From: Holophagales bacterium
GTDB taxonomy: Bacteria > Acidobacteriota > Thermoanaerobaculia > Multivoradales > Multivoraceae
Assembly (NCBI GenBank): GCA_009837885.1
Contig: VXSP01000045.1
Location: 234,174-298,173 of the forward strand
Direction: 5' to 3'
Length of the DNA stretch: 64,000 nt
How positions within the stretch are numbered: position 1 is the first letter of the stretch; each line of letters starts with the position of its first letter. Below, piece by piece: positions 2,200-62,885 of this stretch. The translations under genes were made by a program, and so were the position numbers. The notes below the pieces were generated by a model that saw only the letters and a list, made by a program, of their open reading frames with translations, was not told the origin of the DNA and ran no database searches.

Positions 2200-5121
2200 A
2201 TGTCTACTGTTGATTCCATTCGCTTTGCTGCTTGCCGGGCATCAGTGCGTTGCTCCGTTGTGCTCCTGGCGGCGGTGTTGCTGGCGCCCTCTTCGGCGGC
2301 TCAGGCACAGCAGCTCCTGACTCTGGTGCGGGGCGTCGGAGAAGCGGCATCGGTGGGCGACCCTGGTCCTTCGATCGGGCCGGTTCCGACAGCCGTGCAG
2401 GTGGACCTGACCTTGCTGCGCGGTGCGCCGTTACGGCTGGAGGTGCCGACGCCCGACGGCAGCGTCCTTGTGGCGGAACGAAGTGTGTTCGAGGACCGTG
2501 GCGGCGGCGACCTGATGTGGTCAGGCGGCCAGCCGGAGGCGGGGTACGACACGGTGGTGCTGACGGTGGAGGGCGGCCGTCTGGTGGGCCGCTTCGGGGC
2601 GGCGGGCGGCGGCGTGTACCAGATCCACGCGGAGCGGGACGGCCGCGGCGGCATGGCGCCGATCGTTGGGCCGGACGGCTCCGAGCCGTGGTGCGCGGTG
2701 GAGACAGATGCGGACGGTGGCCACGACGTTCATGCCCATGGCCTGGCAGACGTCTATGCAGCGGATCCACCCGAGCCCGTGAGCAACCCGCAGAACCACG
2801 AGAGGCTGGACATCCTGGTGCTGTACACGGCGACAGCCGCCGAGAATTGGGCTGACCGCGGTGGCGCCCTGGCTGCGATTCGCCACGCCGGCGACTACCT
2901 GAAGATGGTGTTTCGGAACAACGACCTCCCGGTCGAGCCGCACATCGTGCACGTCGCGCAGGCGTCGGCCGCTTTGGATCGGGTGGGAAGAGACCTGGGT
3001 CGGCACGAGTGGCAACCCTTCGGGGAAAGCGAGTTGCTGAGCCTCCACATGGGGGATCGGGACGGGGTCTTGCCGCGTCTGCGACTCGAGCACCGGGCCG
3101 ACATGGTCTACCTCTTCCATGGAGAGAGCCGTCATCTGCACGGCGGCGTCTGCGGCAGGTACAGGCTCTTGGAGAAGAACGATGAAGCACGCTGGGTCGT
3201 TCCGAGCGGCTGGTCATCCAATGACCCGACGTGCGGCGACTACGCCGCGGTCTTCGTTCACGAACTCGGCCATGGTCTGGGGGCCCACCACGAACCCGCG
3301 AATCTCGTGGGTTTATTGGGTTTGGGAAGGGACCCTCGGGCCAGGCTCTTCGCACCGTACGCTCTTGGCCATGTGAACTACGACGTCATGCCGGGCCTCG
3401 GCACGGCGATGAGCTATCAGGGTCAAATCGAGCCGTTCTACTCCACCACCCGAATCAAACCCTACGGTGGTGCGGCCATCGGTGTCGCGGACCAGCAGGA
3501 CAACGCCCGGACCCTGCGCGAGACCGTTCCCATGATTGCCCAAGTCAGCGACTACTTGAGGTCGATCGAGGGCCTTCCTGCGCAGCCGAGCAACCTCCGA
3601 GGTCGGCTTGAGGGCGCGTTCGCGAGCCTCTCCTGGCAGGACAACGCGCCGGATGCAGACGGATACTACGTGGATCACTACGTCTCTTGGGGAGAGGACT
3701 CTCTGCACGACACTGTTCGGGTCGAAGGCCGGACCGAGGCGGTTCTCCCTCTGAAGATCACCGTGCCGGGAGCGCGACACCAATTCGCCGTACTCGCGGG
3801 GAAGAAGGGCGACGTCTACTCTCTCGCCAGCAATCGCATTGCCCTCATCTTCCCGGGCGACCCGATCGAAGCGCCGTCGGACGTCTCGGTGGCAGTCGAT
3901 CCTCAGCTTGGGGCCGTCGAAGTCCGTTGGGCCGACAACTCCGACAATGAAACCGGATTCGACGTGCAACTCCTGCGGACCGGGGACCCGATCCGGCGGC
4001 AACGGTTGCCAGCAGGCAGTACGAAGACGAGCTTCTACGCCTCGAATGTGTTGCCCCGGCAGCGCGCCGAGTACGAAGTGCGAGTCTTCGCTTTTAGCTC
4101 GTCGGGCCAATCCGGGAGCAGCGGAACAGTGGCTTTCCGGTGGGATCACCCGCTCGCGGTCGGGCCGGTTGCCGATCTCTCGGCGACGGCCATTGAGCCG
4201 ACCAAAGTGCGCGTCACGTGGACGGTCGATCCGGAGGTTGGGTGGTATCGTGTCGACGCCGAACTTCCAGGTTGGCAGGCTTCCCGCAACTGGTTCCCGC
4301 CACTCGACGGTGCTGTCGACACTGGGTGGATTGACTTTGAGGGTCTGGCGCGTGGCGGCCGCTACACGTTTGAAGTGACCCCGAGTCGGCCCCGCGGTTT
4401 GCCATCCAGGGTCTACCTTGCTTTGGGGGAGCGCGACGCGGGTCCAAGGGCGCCGTCGGACCCTTCCCTGACCGACGACGGAGAACTACGCCTGAGCTGG
4501 ACGGACAACTCCACCGACGAAACGGGCTTCGAGATCCAGGTTGGTGTCGTAGAGCCTGGGTCTGGCGGGTTTGGACACCGACAGAGTTGGTGGCGAGCGG
4601 CAACCGCCCCTCTGGACACGGAATCGGCCTTCGTCAGTACGCCGGTGAATCTCGGTGACGAGCTCCGTGTCCGGGTGTTTGCCTACAACGAGCGAGGGTT
4701 TTCCTTCGGCAGTCCTCGCGTGCCCGAGCGGCCGGCGGGGCCCGCCGGTTCCTGCCGGGCCGACGCGGAAACGCTTTGCCTCCAGAACTCGCGCTTCCAG
4801 GTGAAGGTTGGCTGGTGGAACGCCGATGGCGAGTCAGGGGTCGGCTGGGTCGTCGAGGACCGCACCGACGACTCGGGCATGTTCCGGTTTTTCGGCCCCC
4901 TGAACTGGGAGATCCTGATCAAGGTGCTGGATGGCTGCCGGTCCAACAGGCGGATGTGGGTGCTGGCCGCTGCCACGACGGACCTGGGGTACCGGATCGT
5001 GGTCACCGACACGGTGACCGGTGAATCGCGGTCGTACGAGAACGAGCCGGGCCAGCGGGCGCCGGCGATCGTTGACACTGACGCCTTCTCAAGGTCCTGT
5101 GGCGGCGGGGAAGCGCCTTGA
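2200..5121 (+). CDS. Secreted metzincin-type metalloprotease with fibronectin III repeats
   Basis: 973 residues. A signal peptide (about 1-37, ending SSAAQAQ) is followed by a catalytic domain with the zinc motif HELGHGLGAHH (H354, E355, H358, H364). A Met-turn lies at GTAMSY (M404), so this is a metzincin of the reprolysin-like kind. Downstream come about four fibronectin type III-like modules, at roughly 455-545, 555-645, 650-740 and 745-845. Two of them carry the typical W-x-DNS-x-ET-GF-x-V/I-Q strand. The last 120 residues (about 850-973) form the same Cys-containing domain that is duplicated in the gene at 2-802. The likely role is an extracellular protease held at or near the surface. 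Substrate is unknown. The ATG at 2200 gives a complete signal peptide. Confidence 0.9.
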   Translation: MSTVDSIRFAACRASVRCSVVLLAAVLLAPSSAAQAQQLLTLVRGVGEAASVGDPGPSIGPVPTAVQVDLTLLRGAPLRLEVPTPDGSVLVAERSVFEDRGGGDLMWSGGQPEAGYDTVVLTVEGGRLVGRFGAAGGGVYQIHAERDGRGGMAPIVGPDGSEPWCAVETDADGGHDVHAHGLADVYAADPPEPVSNPQNHERLDILVLYTATAAENWADRGGALAAIRHAGDYLKMVFRNNDLPVEPHIVHVAQASAALDRVGRDLGRHEWQPFGESELLSLHMGDRDGVLPRLRLEHRADMVYLFHGESRHLHGGVCGRYRLLEKNDEARWVVPSGWSSNDPTCGDYAAVFVHELGHGLGAHHEPANLVGLLGLGRDPRARLFAPYALGHVNYDVMPGLGTAMSYQGQIEPFYSTTRIKPYGGAAIGVADQQDNARTLRETVPMIAQVSDYLRSIEGLPAQPSNLRGRLEGAFASLSWQDNAPDADGYYVDHYVSWGEDSLHDTVRVEGRTEAVLPLKITVPGARHQFAVLAGKKGDVYSLASNRIALIFPGDPIEAPSDVSVAVDPQLGAVEVRWADNSDNETGFDVQLLRTGDPIRRQRLPAGSTKTSFYASNVLPRQRAEYEVRVFAFSSSGQSGSSGTVAFRWDHPLAVGPVADLSATAIEPTKVRVTWTVDPEVGWYRVDAELPGWQASRNWFPPLDGAVDTGWIDFEGLARGGRYTFEVTPSRPRGLPSRVYLALGERDAGPRAPSDPSLTDDGELRLSWTDNSTDETGFEIQVGVVEPGSGGFGHRQSWWRAATAPLDTESAFVSTPVNLGDELRVRVFAYNERGFSFGSPRVPERPAGPAGSCRADAETLCLQNSRFQVKVGWWNADGESGVGWVVEDRTDDSGMFRFFGPLNWEILIKVLDGCRSNRRMWVLAAATTDLGYRIVVTDTVTGESRSYENEPGQRAPAIVDTDAFSRSCGGGEAP

Positions 5122-43562: not shown

Positions 43563-43607
43563 CTGGGTGCGCGGGTCTTCCGACCCGCACGCTGCGGCTA
43601 CGCCGCG
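43563..43607 (+). repeat. Double-hairpin intergenic repeat, copy 1
   Basis: CTGGGTGC leads into stem 1 GCGGGTC/GACCCGC (43571-43577 with 43582-43588, loop TTCC). Stem 2 is GCGGC/GCCGC (43594-43598 with 43602-43606, loop TAC). Two other copies at 59130 and 61739 have the same layout with different stem sequences. Confidence 0.7.
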
Positions 43608-46446: not shown

Positions 46447-47718
46447 ATGACGACGGACCACACCGGGCCAGGATCGGCGAACCCTGGCGGCGCGTCCGCG
46501 CGTCACCAGCGTCACGGTCCGAGCGCCCGTCCGCGGGCGGTCGGACGTCACGACCGCGACTGGTACGCCTGGCTCCTCGATCCACTGCCGCCGGCGGAGT
46601 TCGAAACCGACTACTACGAGCAGCGGTTTCTTCACATCCGGCGCGACGCGCCGGCGTACTACGCCGGGCTCCTCTCGGTGAGCGACCTCGACAACGTGCT
46701 CGGCACCCACTCGGCCGGTCATCGCGACATCAAGCTGGTTCGTGCCGACGGCGACGTTGCCTCCCGTGAGTACGCGAACGACGCCGGCAGGGTCCAGCCG
46801 CTTGAGGTCGCCAGGCACTTCGACGACGGCGCGACGATCATCTTCAACCAGCTTCAAACGCGCGTACCGACGCTGGCCCGGCTGTGCGGCGCGCTCGGAC
46901 GGCGCTTCTCGTCGCGGGCACAGACCAACGTGTATCTCACGCCGCCCGAGGAGCAGGGCTTCGCCCCGCATTGGGACACCCACGACGTCTTCGTACTGCA
47001 GATCAGCGGCACCAAGCGCTGGTCGATCTACGACACCAAGGTGAAACTGCCGCTCCGGGGCCAGGGCTTCGAACGCGGTACGCCTCCCGGCGCCGTCACC
47101 GACGAGTTCGAACTCGGCCCGGGCAACGCCCTTTACATCCCACGAGGTCTGATGCACTCGGCCCGTTCGACAGGGCAGACGTCGTTGCACATCACGCTCG
47201 GGCTCACGGCGTTCACATGGGCCGAGTTCCTCGTCGAAAGTGTCACCGCGGCGGCACTCGAGGAAGAATCGCTGCGGCGGAATCTCCCTCGCGAGTTCGC
47301 TCGTGAGGAACTCCCCCTGGCCGAGCGAGAGCGCCTGTTCGGCGAGAAGCTGGCGTTCGTGCAGTCGCGATTCGATGCCGAGGTCGTGTGGCGCCGCTTC
47401 GCGGACGAGGTCCTGGCCGCCGACGTCCCCCTGTTCACCGACCTGCTCAGCCAGCGGCTCCACGGAGACCGGCTGACGCCCCGCTCGCGGGTAAGGCGCC
47501 GGGCCGGGCTGCTCACGGAAGCCGTGACGGACAGGGAATCGTGCCTCCTCCGGTTCGGTGGCCGTGAGATCAGGCTGCCGGCCGGCGTGTGGCCGGCGCT
47601 TCAGTTCGCGACGACGGCTGACGAGTTCGCCATCGAGGACCTGCCCGACTGCCTGGATGCCGAGGGAAAGCTGACCCTTGTGGCGCGACTCGTCAGGGAG
47701 GGGGTTCTCCAGCGCTGA
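46447..47718 (+). CDS. JmjC/cupin-like 2-oxoglutarate oxygenase
   Basis: 423 residues from the ATG at 46447; earlier in-frame starts are possible. The Fe(II) triad is seen as HWDTHD (H175, D177) and MHSA (H237). Between them is QISGTKRWSIYD, the lysine of which probably holds 2-oxoglutarate. The layout, with an N-terminal EQRFLHIRRDAPAYYAGLL and a C-terminal helical winged region, is that of YcfD/MINA53-like ribosomal oxygenases. Those hydroxylate ribosomal protein residues in E. coli and humans; here the substrate is unknown. It is divergent from a small exported protein and a PepSY gene. Confidence 0.88.
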   Translation: MTTDHTGPGSANPGGASARHQRHGPSARPRAVGRHDRDWYAWLLDPLPPAEFETDYYEQRFLHIRRDAPAYYAGLLSVSDLDNVLGTHSAGHRDIKLVRADGDVASREYANDAGRVQPLEVARHFDDGATIIFNQLQTRVPTLARLCGALGRRFSSRAQTNVYLTPPEEQGFAPHWDTHDVFVLQISGTKRWSIYDTKVKLPLRGQGFERGTPPGAVTDEFELGPGNALYIPRGLMHSARSTGQTSLHITLGLTAFTWAEFLVESVTAAALEEESLRRNLPREFAREELPLAERERLFGEKLAFVQSRFDAEVVWRRFADEVLAADVPLFTDLLSQRLHGDRLTPRSRVRRRAGLLTEAVTDRESCLLRFGGREIRLPAGVWPALQFATTADEFAIEDLPDCLDAEGKLTLVARLVREGVLQR

Positions 47719-57968: not shown

Positions 57969-59126
57969 ATGATTCCGATCAAGTACACGTACCGTAACCT
58001 GTTCGAACGGCGTGGCGTGGCGTTCATGACGCTCGCCTCGATCGGCTTCGTCGTTCTCGTCTACATCGGCGTGCTCGCCCTCGCCGGCGGCCTGCAGGCC
58101 GCGTTCGCGGACACAGGGGACGCCTCGGTCGTCATCGTGATGCGGGACGGCACACGCGCCGAGATGGAGAGTTCCTACGCTCAGGAGAGCCACCGGCTGT
58201 TGACCGCGATGCCCGGCATCGAACGAACGGCCGACGGCGCCGTGATCGCCTCCGGCGAAACGGTCACGATCCAGATCTTCAAGCGGGTCGACGGCACCGA
58301 GACGAACGTGATGGTCCGCGGCGTCGAGCCCGGAGCGTTCGCCATTCGGCCCGGCTTCGAGATCACCGAGGGCCGGGTCTTCGAGCCGGGCCGGGGCGAG
58401 ATCATCGTCGGCCGCAGCCTGGCCGGCCGGCTCGGCCTGCGAGTCGGCGACGAGCGCAAGATGGGCCGGAACACGTTCCGGGTCGTGGGCACGTTCGCCG
58501 GCGTGGGCGCCCACGGCTCCGAGATCTGGGGGGACTACCGCGACCTGGGCGATTCGTTCCGCCGCAGCGGCTACTACTCGTCGACCCGGCTCCAGGCGGC
58601 GTCGCCGGGCGCGGCGCGCAACCTGATCGAGACGGTCAAGGCCGACCAGCGGCTCCAGGTGCAGGCCCTGACGGAACCCGAGTACTACGAGCTCCAGTCG
58701 GAAACGTCATCGGGCCAGTTCATCATCCTCGGCAACGTGCTGGCCGTGCTGATGGCGATCGGCGCCTGCTTCGCCGCCGCGAACACGATGTACGCGCAGG
58801 TCGCCGCCCGCGCGCGCGAGATCGGCACCCTGCGCGCCCTCGGTTTCAAGCGGCGCTCGATCATGGGCAGCTTCTTCCTGGAAGCGGTGCTGCTCGGGGT
58901 GGTCGCGGGCGGCTTCGGCGCCCTGCTGTCGCTTCCCCTCAACGCGATCCAGACTGGCACGATGAACCAGGTGACGTTCAGCGAGATCACGTTCCAGTTG
59001 CGCACGACGCCGTTCGCCCTCTTCTCGGGCATCTTCCTGGCCACCGTGACCGGCGTCCTCGGCGGCCTGCTGCCGGCGTTTGGCGCCTCGCGCCAGAAGA
59101 TCACCGACCTTCTCCGCGAAGCGTAA
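57969..59126 (+). CDS. ABC exporter permease 2 (MacB/FtsX-like)
   Basis: 385 residues. Same layout as the preceding permease: an N-terminal helix (about 18-40), a periplasmic MacB-type domain with the PGIERTADGAVIASGETV and EPGRGEIIVGRSLAGRLGL segments, and three C-terminal helices with ARAREIGTLRALGFKRRSIMGSFFLEAVLLG. It begins 28 bp after permease 1. With adaptor, ATPase and permease 1 it makes a complete inner-membrane half of a tripartite exporter. Substrate unknown. Confidence 0.92.
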   Translation: MIPIKYTYRNLFERRGVAFMTLASIGFVVLVYIGVLALAGGLQAAFADTGDASVVIVMRDGTRAEMESSYAQESHRLLTAMPGIERTADGAVIASGETVTIQIFKRVDGTETNVMVRGVEPGAFAIRPGFEITEGRVFEPGRGEIIVGRSLAGRLGLRVGDERKMGRNTFRVVGTFAGVGAHGSEIWGDYRDLGDSFRRSGYYSSTRLQAASPGAARNLIETVKADQRLQVQALTEPEYYELQSETSSGQFIILGNVLAVLMAIGACFAAANTMYAQVAARAREIGTLRALGFKRRSIMGSFFLEAVLLGVVAGGFGALLSLPLNAIQTGTMNQVTFSEITFQLRTTPFALFSGIFLATVTGVLGGLLPAFGASRQKITDLLREA

Positions 59127-59129
59127 ACA

Positions 59130-59190
59130 CTGGGTGCGCGTGCCGGTGCGCCGGCCCTCTGGCCGGCATCCACGCGAGCCGCGAAGCGGC
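59130..59190 (+). repeat. Double-hairpin intergenic repeat, copy 2
   Basis: CTGGGTGCGC is followed, after an extra 10-nt segment, by stem 1 GCCGGCC/GGCCGGC (59150-59156 with 59161-59167, loop CTCT). Stem 2 is GCCGC/GCGGC (59178-59182 with 59186-59190, loop GAA). It begins 4 bp after the stop codon of permease 2 and so may also end transcription of the exporter operon. Confidence 0.72.
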
Positions 59191-59222
59191 GAGCCCGAGT
59201 GGCCGTGTACCCTGAAGGAACG

Positions 59223-60755
59223 GTGTCGAGCCCTTCGGTCCGTCTTTCCCAGACCTCTCTGTTGGTCGCCGCGACGCTCCTTGTCGCCGCCTGCCATGAC
59301 TCGCTGACGCCGGCTGCACCGGCCTCAGTGACCCTCCCCAACATCGTCCTCATCGTCCCGGACGACCTCGGTCATCACGACGTCAGCTTCAACGGCGGCG
59401 AGATCGCGACCCCGAACATCGACCGGATTGCCGCCGAGGGGGTGCTGATCGATCGCTTCTACACGGCGCCGATCTGCTCGCCGACCCGGGCGGGCTTGAT
59501 GACTGGCCGCTATCCCATCCGCTACGGGCTGATGCGGAATGTCATCGCACCCTGGCAGGACTTCGGGCTGGACACCGCGGAGGTCACGCTGCCTGAGGTG
59601 CTGGCAAGGGCCGGCTATGAGCACCGCGCCGCTTTCGGCAAATGGCATCTGGGCCACGTCCGCCGGGAGCACCACCCGCTGCGCCGCGGCTTCACGGAGT
59701 TCGTCGGCCACAACACGTCGATCGACTACTTCACGAAGGAGCGCTTCGGAGAACGGGACTGGTTTCACGGCTACGAGCCGGTAGACGAAGAGGGTTACGT
59801 CACGGACCTCGTGGCCGAGCACGCGGTCCGGTTCATCGACCGGCACGCGAACGGCCAGGCGCCGTTCTTCCTCTACGTTCCGTTCAACGCGGCGCACTCT
59901 CCGCTGCAGGCGAAGGAGGAGGACCTGCCGCGATACGCTCACCTGGACGCGGTCGAGCCGCCGCGCAGTTGGGAGGAAGTCACCGCCGGCTGGCCTCTTG
60001 GGCCGGAGGAGCAGCGCCGCGAAGACCGTCGCGTCCACGCCTCGATGGTTCACGCGCTGGACGAGGGCGTGGGCCGCATCCTCCGGGCGCTCGACGATCG
60101 CGGCATCGCGGAGAACACTCTCGTCCTCTTCTTCAGCGACAACGGCGGCGGCCTCGGCGCCGCTGACAACGGGCCCTACCGGGGCACGAAGAGCACCGTC
60201 TTCGAGGGCGGCACGCGCGTCGCCGCGGCAGCGCGCTGGCCGACGGGGGGCATCTCGGGCGGCCGCCGGGTGAAGCCGCCGGTCGCCTACATCGACATCC
60301 TGCCGACCCTGATGGGCGTCGCCGGCTTGAACGACCACGGCGGCAAGGAACTGGACGGTCGGGACGTCAGCGACGTGCTCGCCGGCGCGGACGTCGACGG
60401 ACCGGAGCGCGACCTGTACTCCTTCGTCGGCCAGAAGAACCCGGAGCGGGAGCAAGTGTCGGTGATGTCGGGCGCCTGGAAGCTCGTCGTCATCGGCCCG
60501 CCGCTCGACCGACCCGGATCGGCGCCGGCGTCCGAGCAGCTTCTGTACCGGATCGAGGAGGATCCCTTCGAAGAACGGAACCTGGTCACGGACCATCCGC
60601 ACGTGGTCGAGCGTCTCCTCGAAAAGGCCCATGATTTCCGCGCCCTGCAACCGCCGAACCCGGTGGGGTCCTTCGGCGTGGGTATGGAAGGGTTCGAGCC
60701 GCCGCCGAACTGGCGGTTCCCTGAAGCCGATACCACCGAATCAGGAGGATCCTGA
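59223..60755 (+). CDS. Sulfatase lipoprotein (type I, formylglycine-dependent)
   Basis: 510 residues from the GTG at 59223, preceded by GAAGGA. A lipoprotein signal ends LLVAAC (about C20). The catalytic motif CSPTRAGLMTGR has Cys at residue 85, to be converted to formylglycine, and the metal site opens with VPDDLGHHD. Later KWHLGH and SDNGGGLGAADNGPYRG complete the arylsulfatase fold. It removes sulfate from a polysaccharide, phenol or steroid ester outside the cytoplasm. A double-lipocalin lipoprotein gene follows after 2 bp, so the two are one operon. No maturase (anSME/FGE) lies in the window. Confidence 0.92.
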   Translation: MSSPSVRLSQTSLLVAATLLVAACHDSLTPAAPASVTLPNIVLIVPDDLGHHDVSFNGGEIATPNIDRIAAEGVLIDRFYTAPICSPTRAGLMTGRYPIRYGLMRNVIAPWQDFGLDTAEVTLPEVLARAGYEHRAAFGKWHLGHVRREHHPLRRGFTEFVGHNTSIDYFTKERFGERDWFHGYEPVDEEGYVTDLVAEHAVRFIDRHANGQAPFFLYVPFNAAHSPLQAKEEDLPRYAHLDAVEPPRSWEEVTAGWPLGPEEQRREDRRVHASMVHALDEGVGRILRALDDRGIAENTLVLFFSDNGGGLGAADNGPYRGTKSTVFEGGTRVAAAARWPTGGISGGRRVKPPVAYIDILPTLMGVAGLNDHGGKELDGRDVSDVLAGADVDGPERDLYSFVGQKNPEREQVSVMSGAWKLVVIGPPLDRPGSAPASEQLLYRIEEDPFEERNLVTDHPHVVERLLEKAHDFRALQPPNPVGSFGVGMEGFEPPPNWRFPEADTTESGGS

Positions 60756-60757
60756 CC

Positions 60758-61714
60758 ATGCGTTCGAGTTACTGTGCCCTCGTCGGCGTCGCCCTGCTAC
60801 TTGGTGGCTGCGCTGGTCCCACCGCCGACCAGTCGTCCGCCCCGGCCGCGCCCGGCGACCCGGGCGCGCCGTTTCACGGCGCCTGGGAGTTGGCTTCGGT
60901 CGTTCGCTACTCGGGCGACGGCGAGGAGTTGTCGCGCAACGAATCGTCGACCGGCTTCATCATGTACGACCCGGCCGGAACGATGGGTGTCGTCATCCAG
61001 GGCGCCGATCGCGCGCCGTATGCGGGTGATGAGGCGACACCCGAGGAGATCCTGGCGGCCTACCGGTCGTACACGTCCTACTTCGGCGGCTTCACGGTGG
61101 ACCCGGAGGCGGGCACCGTCACCCACCACCTGCGGGCGAGCATGAACCCGCGCGGCGCCGGCTCGGACTACGTCCGTCACTACGAATTCGAGGAGGACCG
61201 CCTGACTCTGCAGCCACCTGCCGGCGCCGACGGCGGCGTCGTGCGGCTGACCTGGAGGCGGCTGTCCGACCTGGCCGAACTCACGGACGAGCACCGCCGC
61301 TTCATCGGCTTCTGGGAGTTCGCGCGGCTGGACCGCACCGACGACTCGGGCACAGCGCTGCCGGTGCAGCGGACCTACGAGGACGGCTTCATCATCTACA
61401 CGGCCTCCGGCCACATGGCGGTTCACCTGGTGCGTCCGGGCCGGGAACTCTCCGCCGCCGGCCGCCCGACGGCGGAGGAGGCCGCCGCCGCGATGAGCAC
61501 CCACGTCAGCTACTTCGGGCCGTACACGATCCACGAGGAAGAGGGATTCGTCGTTCACCAGCGGCCCGGTTGCTGGTTTCCCGGCTGCATCGGCTCGGAC
61601 GCCCGGCGCGGCTACGAGTTCGGAGACGGCACGCTGACGCTAAGGCCGCCGGCGCGGGAAGTCGACGGTGGCACAGTTCAGGACGCTTTGACGTGGGAAC
61701 GTGTCGGCGAGTAG
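60758..61714 (+). CDS. Lipoprotein with two lipocalin-like domains
   Basis: 318 residues; AGGAGG before the ATG and a lipoprotein signal ending LLGGC (C18). Two repeats of a lipocalin-like module follow, each starting with a GxWEx(A/F) strand: FHGAWELASVVRYSGDGEE (about 40-165) and FIGFWEFARLDRTDDSG (about 180-310). Both contain the family's GFI-Y--(A/S)G-M-V motif and a YFG-(F/Y)T or YFGPYTI strand. It may bind a small hydrophobic ligand. Direct coupling to the sulfatase suggests a related task; no enzyme residues are known. Confidence 0.85.
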   Translation: MRSSYCALVGVALLLGGCAGPTADQSSAPAAPGDPGAPFHGAWELASVVRYSGDGEELSRNESSTGFIMYDPAGTMGVVIQGADRAPYAGDEATPEEILAAYRSYTSYFGGFTVDPEAGTVTHHLRASMNPRGAGSDYVRHYEFEEDRLTLQPPAGADGGVVRLTWRRLSDLAELTDEHRRFIGFWEFARLDRTDDSGTALPVQRTYEDGFIIYTASGHMAVHLVRPGRELSAAGRPTAEEAAAAMSTHVSYFGPYTIHEEEGFVVHQRPGCWFPGCIGSDARRGYEFGDGTLTLRPPAREVDGGTVQDALTWERVGE

Positions 61715-61738
61715 GAGGCGGCTCGGCTCACCACCTTC

Positions 61739-61793
61739 CTCGCCGCTCCGCGGCTCGTTGGATGCCGACGGGGACGTCGGCGCACCCAGTGTG
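61739..61793 (-). repeat. Double-hairpin intergenic repeat, copy 3 (inverted)
   Basis: Read on the minus strand it opens ACACTGGGTGCGC. Stem 1 is GCCGACG/CGTCGGC (61764-61770 with 61775-61781 on the plus strand, 4-nt loop). Stem 2 is GCCGC/GCGGC (61742-61746 with 61750-61754). It lies between convergent genes, in inverted orientation to copy 2 at 59130. Confidence 0.72.
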
Positions 61794-61796
61794 TAG

Positions 61797-62885
61797 CTAG
61801 GCGGTCTTTGCGATCTTCCGTCGTAGCCAGTCGATCAGCACCCGGTTCGTCTCGGCCGGCTTCTCCTGCTGCGTCCAGTGACCGCAGTCGGCGACGGTGT
61901 ACTTCTCGAAGTCGTCGATGAAGTCCTCCATGCCGTCGGCGGAGGAGGGCCGGAGGATGACGTCGTTCTCGGCGCCGATGTAGAGGCACGGCACGTCGAT
62001 CTCCCACTTCGCGTTCTCGATGCCCGGGAAGGGCCTGCCGGCCATGCGGTACCAGTTGAGCCCGCCGGTGAAGCCGGTGATCTCGAAGGTCTCCGTGAAG
62101 TAGTCCAGGGCCTCCTCGGAAAGGAACACCTCGCCGGGGTAGTCCTCGCGGTCCAGCATCCGGAGCAGGTCCATCTGCCGCTCGGGTGAGTCCGCCGGCA
62201 TCGCCTTGAACGCCTCGACGTCCCAGATGTAGCCGCGGCGCAGCAGCATCTCGAAGGACTTGCGCACATCGGCGGAGAGGGCCTTCTCGGCCCGGCCGGG
62301 CTCCTGGAACTGGACCGTGTAGTAGTTCTCGGACCGGACGATCAGCGGTTCTTCGGTCGGTTGCCGGCGCGGCATGCCGGGGGGCCGTCCGCCTGGCGTG
62401 TTGACGCCGACGATGCCGAGACAGCGGTCCGGGTGCAGCCGCGCCATCATCCACACGACTCCACCGCCCCAGTCGTGGCCGACGAAGACGGCCTTGTCGA
62501 TCTCGAGCGCATCGAGCATTCCCGCCATGTCGTCGCAGAGGTGCTTCAGGCTGTACTCGGCCACGTCCTCGGGCCGGTCGGTCAGGCCGTAGCCGCGCTG
62601 ATCGGGGGCGATGGCGCGGAAACCCGCCTCGGCGAGCGCCGGGAGCTGGAAGCGCCAGGAGAAGGCGAGTTCGGGGAAGCCGTGGCAGAGGACGACGGGG
62701 ATGCCGGTTCCCTGCTCGTAGACCGCCATGCGGATGCCGTTCGTGTCCACGAAGCGGGGCGCAGGCATGCCCGGCGCGGGCCTCACTTCCGCACCCAGCG
62801 CGAGGCGCGGCAAGACCAATGCACCGGCCAGGGAGCCGGTGGCCTGCAGGAAGCCGCGGCGGGAGAGTTGGGGATAACGGATCAT
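61797..62885 (-). CDS. Tat-exported epoxide-hydrolase-like alpha/beta hydrolase
   Basis: 362 residues from the ATG at 62885, preceded by GGAGGT on its strand. The Tat signal is MIRYPQLSRRGFLQATGSLAGALVL. The enzyme core has CHGFPELAFSWRFQ (the HGFPE oxyanion motif), GHDWGGGVVWMMARLHP (nucleophile D in the elbow), a lid tyrosine region and a C-terminal DCGHWTQQEKP (catalytic His). The HGFPE plus GHDWGG pair is typical of soluble epoxide hydrolases and also occurs in fluoroacetate dehalogenase-like enzymes; halide-specific W residues are not convincing. Export by Tat implies folding before secretion. Confidence 0.88.
   Translation of the reverse strand: MIRYPQLSRRGFLQATGSLAGALVLPRLALGAEVRPAPGMPAPRFVDTNGIRMAVYEQGTGIPVVLCHGFPELAFSWRFQLPALAEAGFRAIAPDQRGYGLTDRPEDVAEYSLKHLCDDMAGMLDALEIDKAVFVGHDWGGGVVWMMARLHPDRCLGIVGVNTPGGRPPGMPRRQPTEEPLIVRSENYYTVQFQEPGRAEKALSADVRKSFEMLLRRGYIWDVEAFKAMPADSPERQMDLLRMLDREDYPGEVFLSEEALDYFTETFEITGFTGGLNWYRMAGRPFPGIENAKWEIDVPCLYIGAENDVILRPSSADGMEDFIDDFEKYTVADCGHWTQQEKPAETNRVLIDWLRRKIAKTA

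Follow-up and report, generated by a model that had tools for sequence, protein, structure and literature searches.

Three intergenic sites in the window, as we call the whole 64,000-nucleotide stretch of DNA analysed here, carry a short common sequence and two hairpins, and the stem of the first hairpin differs in sequence from site to site and yet remains paired. This raises the question of whether the sites are copies of one structured RNA maintained by compensatory changes or members of a mobile repeat family of the REP type. Rereading the three copies from the sequence, we found in each a first stem of 7 bp with a 4-nt loop, its pairing kept despite the changed sequence, and 3′ of it a second hairpin of 5 bp with a 3-nt loop (Table 1), as the preliminary description had reported. 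Its claim of a common foot stood in part: the window contains three exact matches to CTGGGTGCGC, but at 59130 that sequence lies apart from the stem, and the foot adjacent to the stem is TGCCGGTGC. One-mismatch matches to CTGGGTGCGC occurred in the window at a frequency not above chance. DNA folding gave z values of −2.7, −2.1, and −2.3 for the three window copies. A partial foot like CTGGGTGCGCG, followed by a class E REP, was also present on contig C15 of the host genome (L097, minus strand, 6726).

Table 1. Hairpin repeats and their parts in the window; REP classes are lettered as the RAYT clades in the text.
Feature	Position	Strand	Description	Basis
Class D REP	43563..43588	+	foot CTGGGTGC, stem GCGGGTC, loop TTCC, arm GACCCGC	sequence and perfect-stem scan
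Class D stem arms	43571-43577 / 43582-43588	+	GCGGGTC / GACCCGC	
Second hairpin	43594..43606	+	GCGGC TAC GCCGC; uncommon downstream module	
CTGGGTGCGCG	59130..59140	+	probable truncated REP start, upstream of the 59142 copy	sequence
Class E REP	59142..59167	+	foot TGCCGGTGC adjoining stem GCCGGCC, loop CTCT, arm GGCCGGC	
Class E stem arms	59150-59156 / 59161-59167	+	GCCGGCC / GGCCGGC	
Second hairpin	59178..59190	+	GCCGC GAA GCGGC	
Class B variant REP	61764..61789	-	foot CTGGGTGC, stem GCCGACG, loop TCCC, arm CGTCGGC	
Class B variant stem arms	61775-61781 / 61764-61770 (plus-strand numbering)	-	GCCGACG / CGTCGGC	
Second hairpin	61742..61754	-	GCCGC GGA GCGGC	

The window copies belong to a large family. 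Genome-wide, CTGGGTGCGC had 234 exact copies as against 19 for the reversed control, and a covariance-model search of the host genome returned at least 150 matches, counts with this model (R1) being lower bounds because about 150 candidates are scored per genome; the further copies on which the preliminary description had staked its reading are thus present in number. In a host sample of 845 kb (851 kb counting overlaps), 44 CTGGGTGC sites had a 7-bp stem in which 6 or more positions pair; the reversed sequence had no such site. The sample held 52 perfect-stem copies and all five of the stem/foot types described below. Host REPs were mainly singlets (51 of 65); few had a nearby inverted partner, the inverted doublet known as a REPIN, and none of the three window copies did. 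The family has the stem-loop palindrome, the high copy number, the mainly extragenic location and the lack of a T-rich tail that define REP elements broadly. It lacks the 5′ GT[AG]G tetranucleotide at the foot that marks GTAG-type REPs, its feet being CTGGGTGC or, in class E, TCGGTGC or CCGGTGC. A tRNA/tmRNA search gave no hit, and in the open-access literature we found no papers on this repeat family in Acidobacteriota.

Outside called genes we found 38 of the 52 perfect copies (3 of them at sequence edges), as compared with about 10% of positions, and inside them 14, as compared with about 90% of random positions in the 845-kb sample, the genes having been called with a crude home-made codon-usage caller that over-calls; several of the 14 intragenic copies were in low-scoring ORFs or near gene ends. 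Convergent gaps, which make up 1.4% of positions, held 13 of the 52. The window copies had been described as extragenic, with one of them between convergent genes, and so they are: the element at 59130 begins 3 nt past the stop codon of an upstream FtsX/MacB-type permease gene, and that at 61764–61789 lies between convergent lipocalin-like and α/β-hydrolase genes. Some E. coli REPs have been proposed to act as mRNA stabilisers or Rho-dependent attenuators. The hairpins here might likewise have been kept for a role in RNA, as stabilisers of mRNA 3′ ends or as Rho-dependent attenuators, their mobility belonging to the past only; the strong enrichment at 3′ ends and in convergent gaps and the stability of the predicted folds would agree with this, and such a role could coexist with the REP explanation as a secondary function. 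However, the same positional bias is also expected if only insertions clear of genes and promoters are tolerated, copies occur in divergent gaps too, and the genes concerned form no consistent set, so that we consider selection for an RNA role an unlikely account of these repeats. It is far less probable that the hairpins serve as intrinsic (Rho-independent) terminators, working in both directions where genes converge: they are G+C-rich and 13 copies lie in convergent gaps, but no T-run follows the stems on the 3′ side, which largely refutes the idea, a terminator scan of 58900–62100 found none, and the conserved 8-nt foot and the RAYT linkage would be left unexplained.

That linkage was found in related genomes. 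The preliminary description had proposed a search for a REP-associated tyrosine transposase (RAYT); in the host genome we found neither a Y1 transposase (Y1_Tnp) nor any match to the RAYTs of the genus, but 12 of 20 same-genus genomes carried RAYTs, 13 genes in total. The two RAYTs tested against NCBIfam REP_Tyr_transpos scored 79.1 and 81.2 bits (cut-off 80), and an invariant PNHVH (HUH) motif was present in the 7 that were aligned. The RAYT tree, in which some deep forks are weak, gave five clades, A to E, clade C consisting of one gene. The same repeats as in the host flank the RAYTs of the sister genomes, partly inverted (L101, L103, L106, L108–L112 and others; the L105 RAYT locus ends at a contig end), and inverted REP doublets adjoin the RAYT genes. 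With a CTGGGTGC foot, the stem was GCGGACC for clade A, GCCGGCG for clade B, GCCGGCC for clade C and GCGGGTC for clade D; clade E was accompanied by GCCGGCC with a TCGGTGC or CCGGTGC foot. Clade and stem/foot type agreed for 13 of 13 RAYTs. All three classes seen in the window have their counterparts there: GCGGGTC flanks the clade-D RAYTs of G002, G003, G008, G018 and G001, the class B stem GCCGGCG those of clade B in G011, G012 and G001, and the foot and stem of the 59142 copy those of clade E in G014 and G010. The term REP-type element, used in the preliminary description, is therefore backed by copy number, extragenic location, convergent-gap enrichment, the hairpin and RAYT linkage in sister species. 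The named relatives of the genus RAYTs come from metagenome-assembled Acidobacteriota, for example Holophagales bacterium and Thermoanaerobaculia bacterium, and, to judge from bin names, a sponge origin may be suspected. Other Acidobacteriota RAYTs (L124, L126, L143, L168) are flanked by related hairpins with feet TCGGAGC or TGGGAGC, which suggests a wider foot series, [TC]GG[AT]GC.

The stem-1 covariation held in a larger alignment. In a set of 24 distinct copies, taken from the host and from the flanks of RAYTs, both partners were changed at 4 of the 7 pairs, and the covariation score was 0.442 as compared with 0.160 in shuffles, none of 500 being as high, and was abolished by sliding the partner arm; these counts, with their shuffle and slide controls, are only partly corrected for relatedness. 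When 39 distinct host 26-mers were picked by CTGGGTGCGC alone, 15 were fully paired (shuffle mean 6.4, maximum 13, in 5000 shuffles). Within class B, GCCGGCG/CGCCGGC gives way to GCCGACG/CGTCGGC, alongside copies changed on one side only. The preliminary description had taken the covariation as evidence for RNA or DNA structure. As evidence for one conserved structure evolving by compensation it is not supported, since the stems differ mainly by REP class, each class tied to its own RAYT lineage. We conclude that stem-1 covariation largely mirrors divergent RAYT/REP lineages, and that the stem sequences in the window differ mainly because the three copies belong to different classes. The significant covariation of stem 1 could be taken to mean that the sites represent a single conserved structured RNA maintained by compensatory selection. 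This is hardly credible, given that Rfam yielded no match in the window, that there are hundreds of copies with no common gene context, and that discrete REP classes matching RAYT lineages explain the covariation. Nor could the proposed flip of the second stem be upheld as covariation. Genome-wide, any of several alternative modules can stand in the place of the downstream hairpin, the same stem classes being followed by GCCGCCG.AGGCGGC, GGCGC..AGCGCC, GCCGC..AGCGGC or other hairpins; compensation within one helix was rejected, the difference in the window being a module swap.

Host sites matching the clade D/E, B and A loci are contiguous, lie within contigs and lack a RAYT. Host C4:9247–17874 matches L119, the clade-D locus of G002, in blocks of 85–96% identity. 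This host site lacks the RAYT and the two REP pairs that flank it (L119 query 3796–4823), and its blocks stand in a rearranged order, the breaks falling at borders where G002 has REPs, as if REPs had served as recombination points around this locus. At the clade-B site, on C34, the left and right flanks are joined across 18 bp beside REP copies, one of which is a fused stub, and at the clade-A site, on C24, 138 bp with a stub in the form of a truncated REP replaces about 2.2 kb. From these alignments the likeliest course of events is that the RAYTs were deleted from the host together with their flanking REPs, rather than never having been present, although the empty sites could in part be ancestral instead of deletions. 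A RAYT could also sit in an assembly gap, since the host genome is a 97.6%-complete assembly in 47 contigs. The blocks of L119 recur beside the clade-D RAYTs of five genomes and, in part, beside the clade-E RAYTs of G014 and G010, and the clade-C RAYT of G007 shares part of the same neighbourhood. One chromosomal neighbourhood was seen with RAYTs of different REP classes (L245–L249, class D; L252 and L254, class E; L253, class C), which resembles the 'orthoswitch' of PMC3686654. Between L244 (host C4:7000–20000) and L119 or L245–L248, blocks of 0.5–1.7 kb change order and orientation, with borders at REP pairs.

After RAYT loss, cognate REPs stop multiplying and decay (PMC3686654), and singlet REPs have been read as defunct remnants (PMC3116915). 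The predominance of singlets in the host and the absence of a RAYT from the genomes poorest in copies fit this model of decay after loss. No RAYT was found in any of the five genomes that ranked lowest by model count (P 0.006, uncorrected for phylogeny); four RAYT-less genomes, one of which is the host, have copy counts (as at-least values) as high as those of RAYT-bearing genomes. Very probably, then, the window features are REPs, non-autonomous mobile hairpins that were spread by class-cognate RAYTs and have been orphaned in the host. By analogy with known systems, the cognate RAYT, an HUH/Y1 endonuclease, would recognise the REP as single-stranded DNA through the conserved 5′ foot and the class-specific 7-bp stem (PMC2817692, PMC3116915, PMC6006769) and would cut it, and the copy would move into intergenic gaps. 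The stem would change along with the RAYT lineage, producing the covariation. With the RAYTs apparently gone from the host, the copies would now be immobile relics in intergenic gaps, notably convergent ones.

In some REPs of this genus the loop of stem 1 holds, always at the same position, a two-hairpin module of 67–70 nt, which would make a three-way junction (L210, L200, L202, L102 and L007; host C9:212805–212874 and C16:115930–115999), with GCCGGCG, GCCGGCC, GCGGGTC and GCGGACC as the enclosing stem classes. A perfect 7-bp enclosing stem was present in 23 of 35 collected module copies, with a fixed 3-nt offset in those 23. RNAalifold predicted two inner hairpins enclosed by the REP stem; 11 of the 33 pairs showed changes on both sides, a figure that takes in the enclosing stem, for whose pairing the copies had been chosen. 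Exact copies of the module's 15-base core number 63 in G016 and likewise 63 in G019, genomes in which no Y1 transposase or RAYT was detected and in which the same scan found no short REPs in the 3-kb loci around 30 module copies; there the module also occurs outside REP stems, and at 66–69-bp spacing in short tandem runs. A second repeated context of the module in these two genomes (L207, L208, L212, L225, L227, L228), with GCATCCCGCCCGGCATCG on the 5′ side and CGCTC or CAAGCTC on the 3′ side, is unrelated to REP stems. The window holds a degenerate module copy with a weak enclosing stem at 46481–46550 on the minus strand. Module and RAYT loci, compared with Rfam at permissive settings, returned sub-threshold noise only. 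We suggest, tentatively, that the module may be a separate mobile element targeting REP loops or else the original long form of the REP.

REPs of Stenotrophomonas and Pseudomonas have a G+C-rich palindrome after a conserved 5′ head, exceed 100 copies per genome, and fall into several classes, each with a matching RAYT, copies remaining after RAYT loss (PMC2817692, PMC3686654). The host REPs are like them in palindrome, head, copy number, RAYT-matched classes and leftover copies, and one Stenotrophomonas class head, GGTGGGTGC, is close to the CTGGGTGC found here (PMC2817692, PMC3686654); they differ in that the head is CTGG (or TCGG/CCGG), not GT[AG]G, and in that the host is an acidobacterium, itself without a RAYT. 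The inverted doublets beside sister-genome RAYTs resemble the REPINs of Pseudomonas fluorescens SBW25 (PMC3116915), whereas most host copies are singlets. As in the TnpA-REP subclasses, there is an HUH/Y1 protein and a repeat type specific to each subclass; class 3, reported from Acidobacteria with about 600 repeats in Solibacter, has a CnGA foot unlike the feet here (PMC6006769). The GTAG and CGTC superfamilies, too, consist of extragenic stem-loops that are present in high copy number and carry a tag at the end, and the loops of some are complex (PMC3733652), but neither tag occurs in the REPs described here.

The biology is that already known for REP/RAYT systems, here with a non-canonical foot and in an acidobacterial genus that has received little study. 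It adds a well-resolved REP/RAYT system for a genus known here from genome assemblies alone; the loop module is the most novel side-find. Apparent RNA covariation, as this family illustrates, can come from lineages of a mobile DNA hairpin. The RAYT-less sites, two of which retain REP stubs, support the model already published, that repeats orphaned by the loss of their RAYT go on to decay. With five RAYT lineages, each matched by its own stem/foot type, this one genus offers a natural data set for the RAYT recognition code, since one type is set apart from another by no more than a few base pairs or else by the foot.
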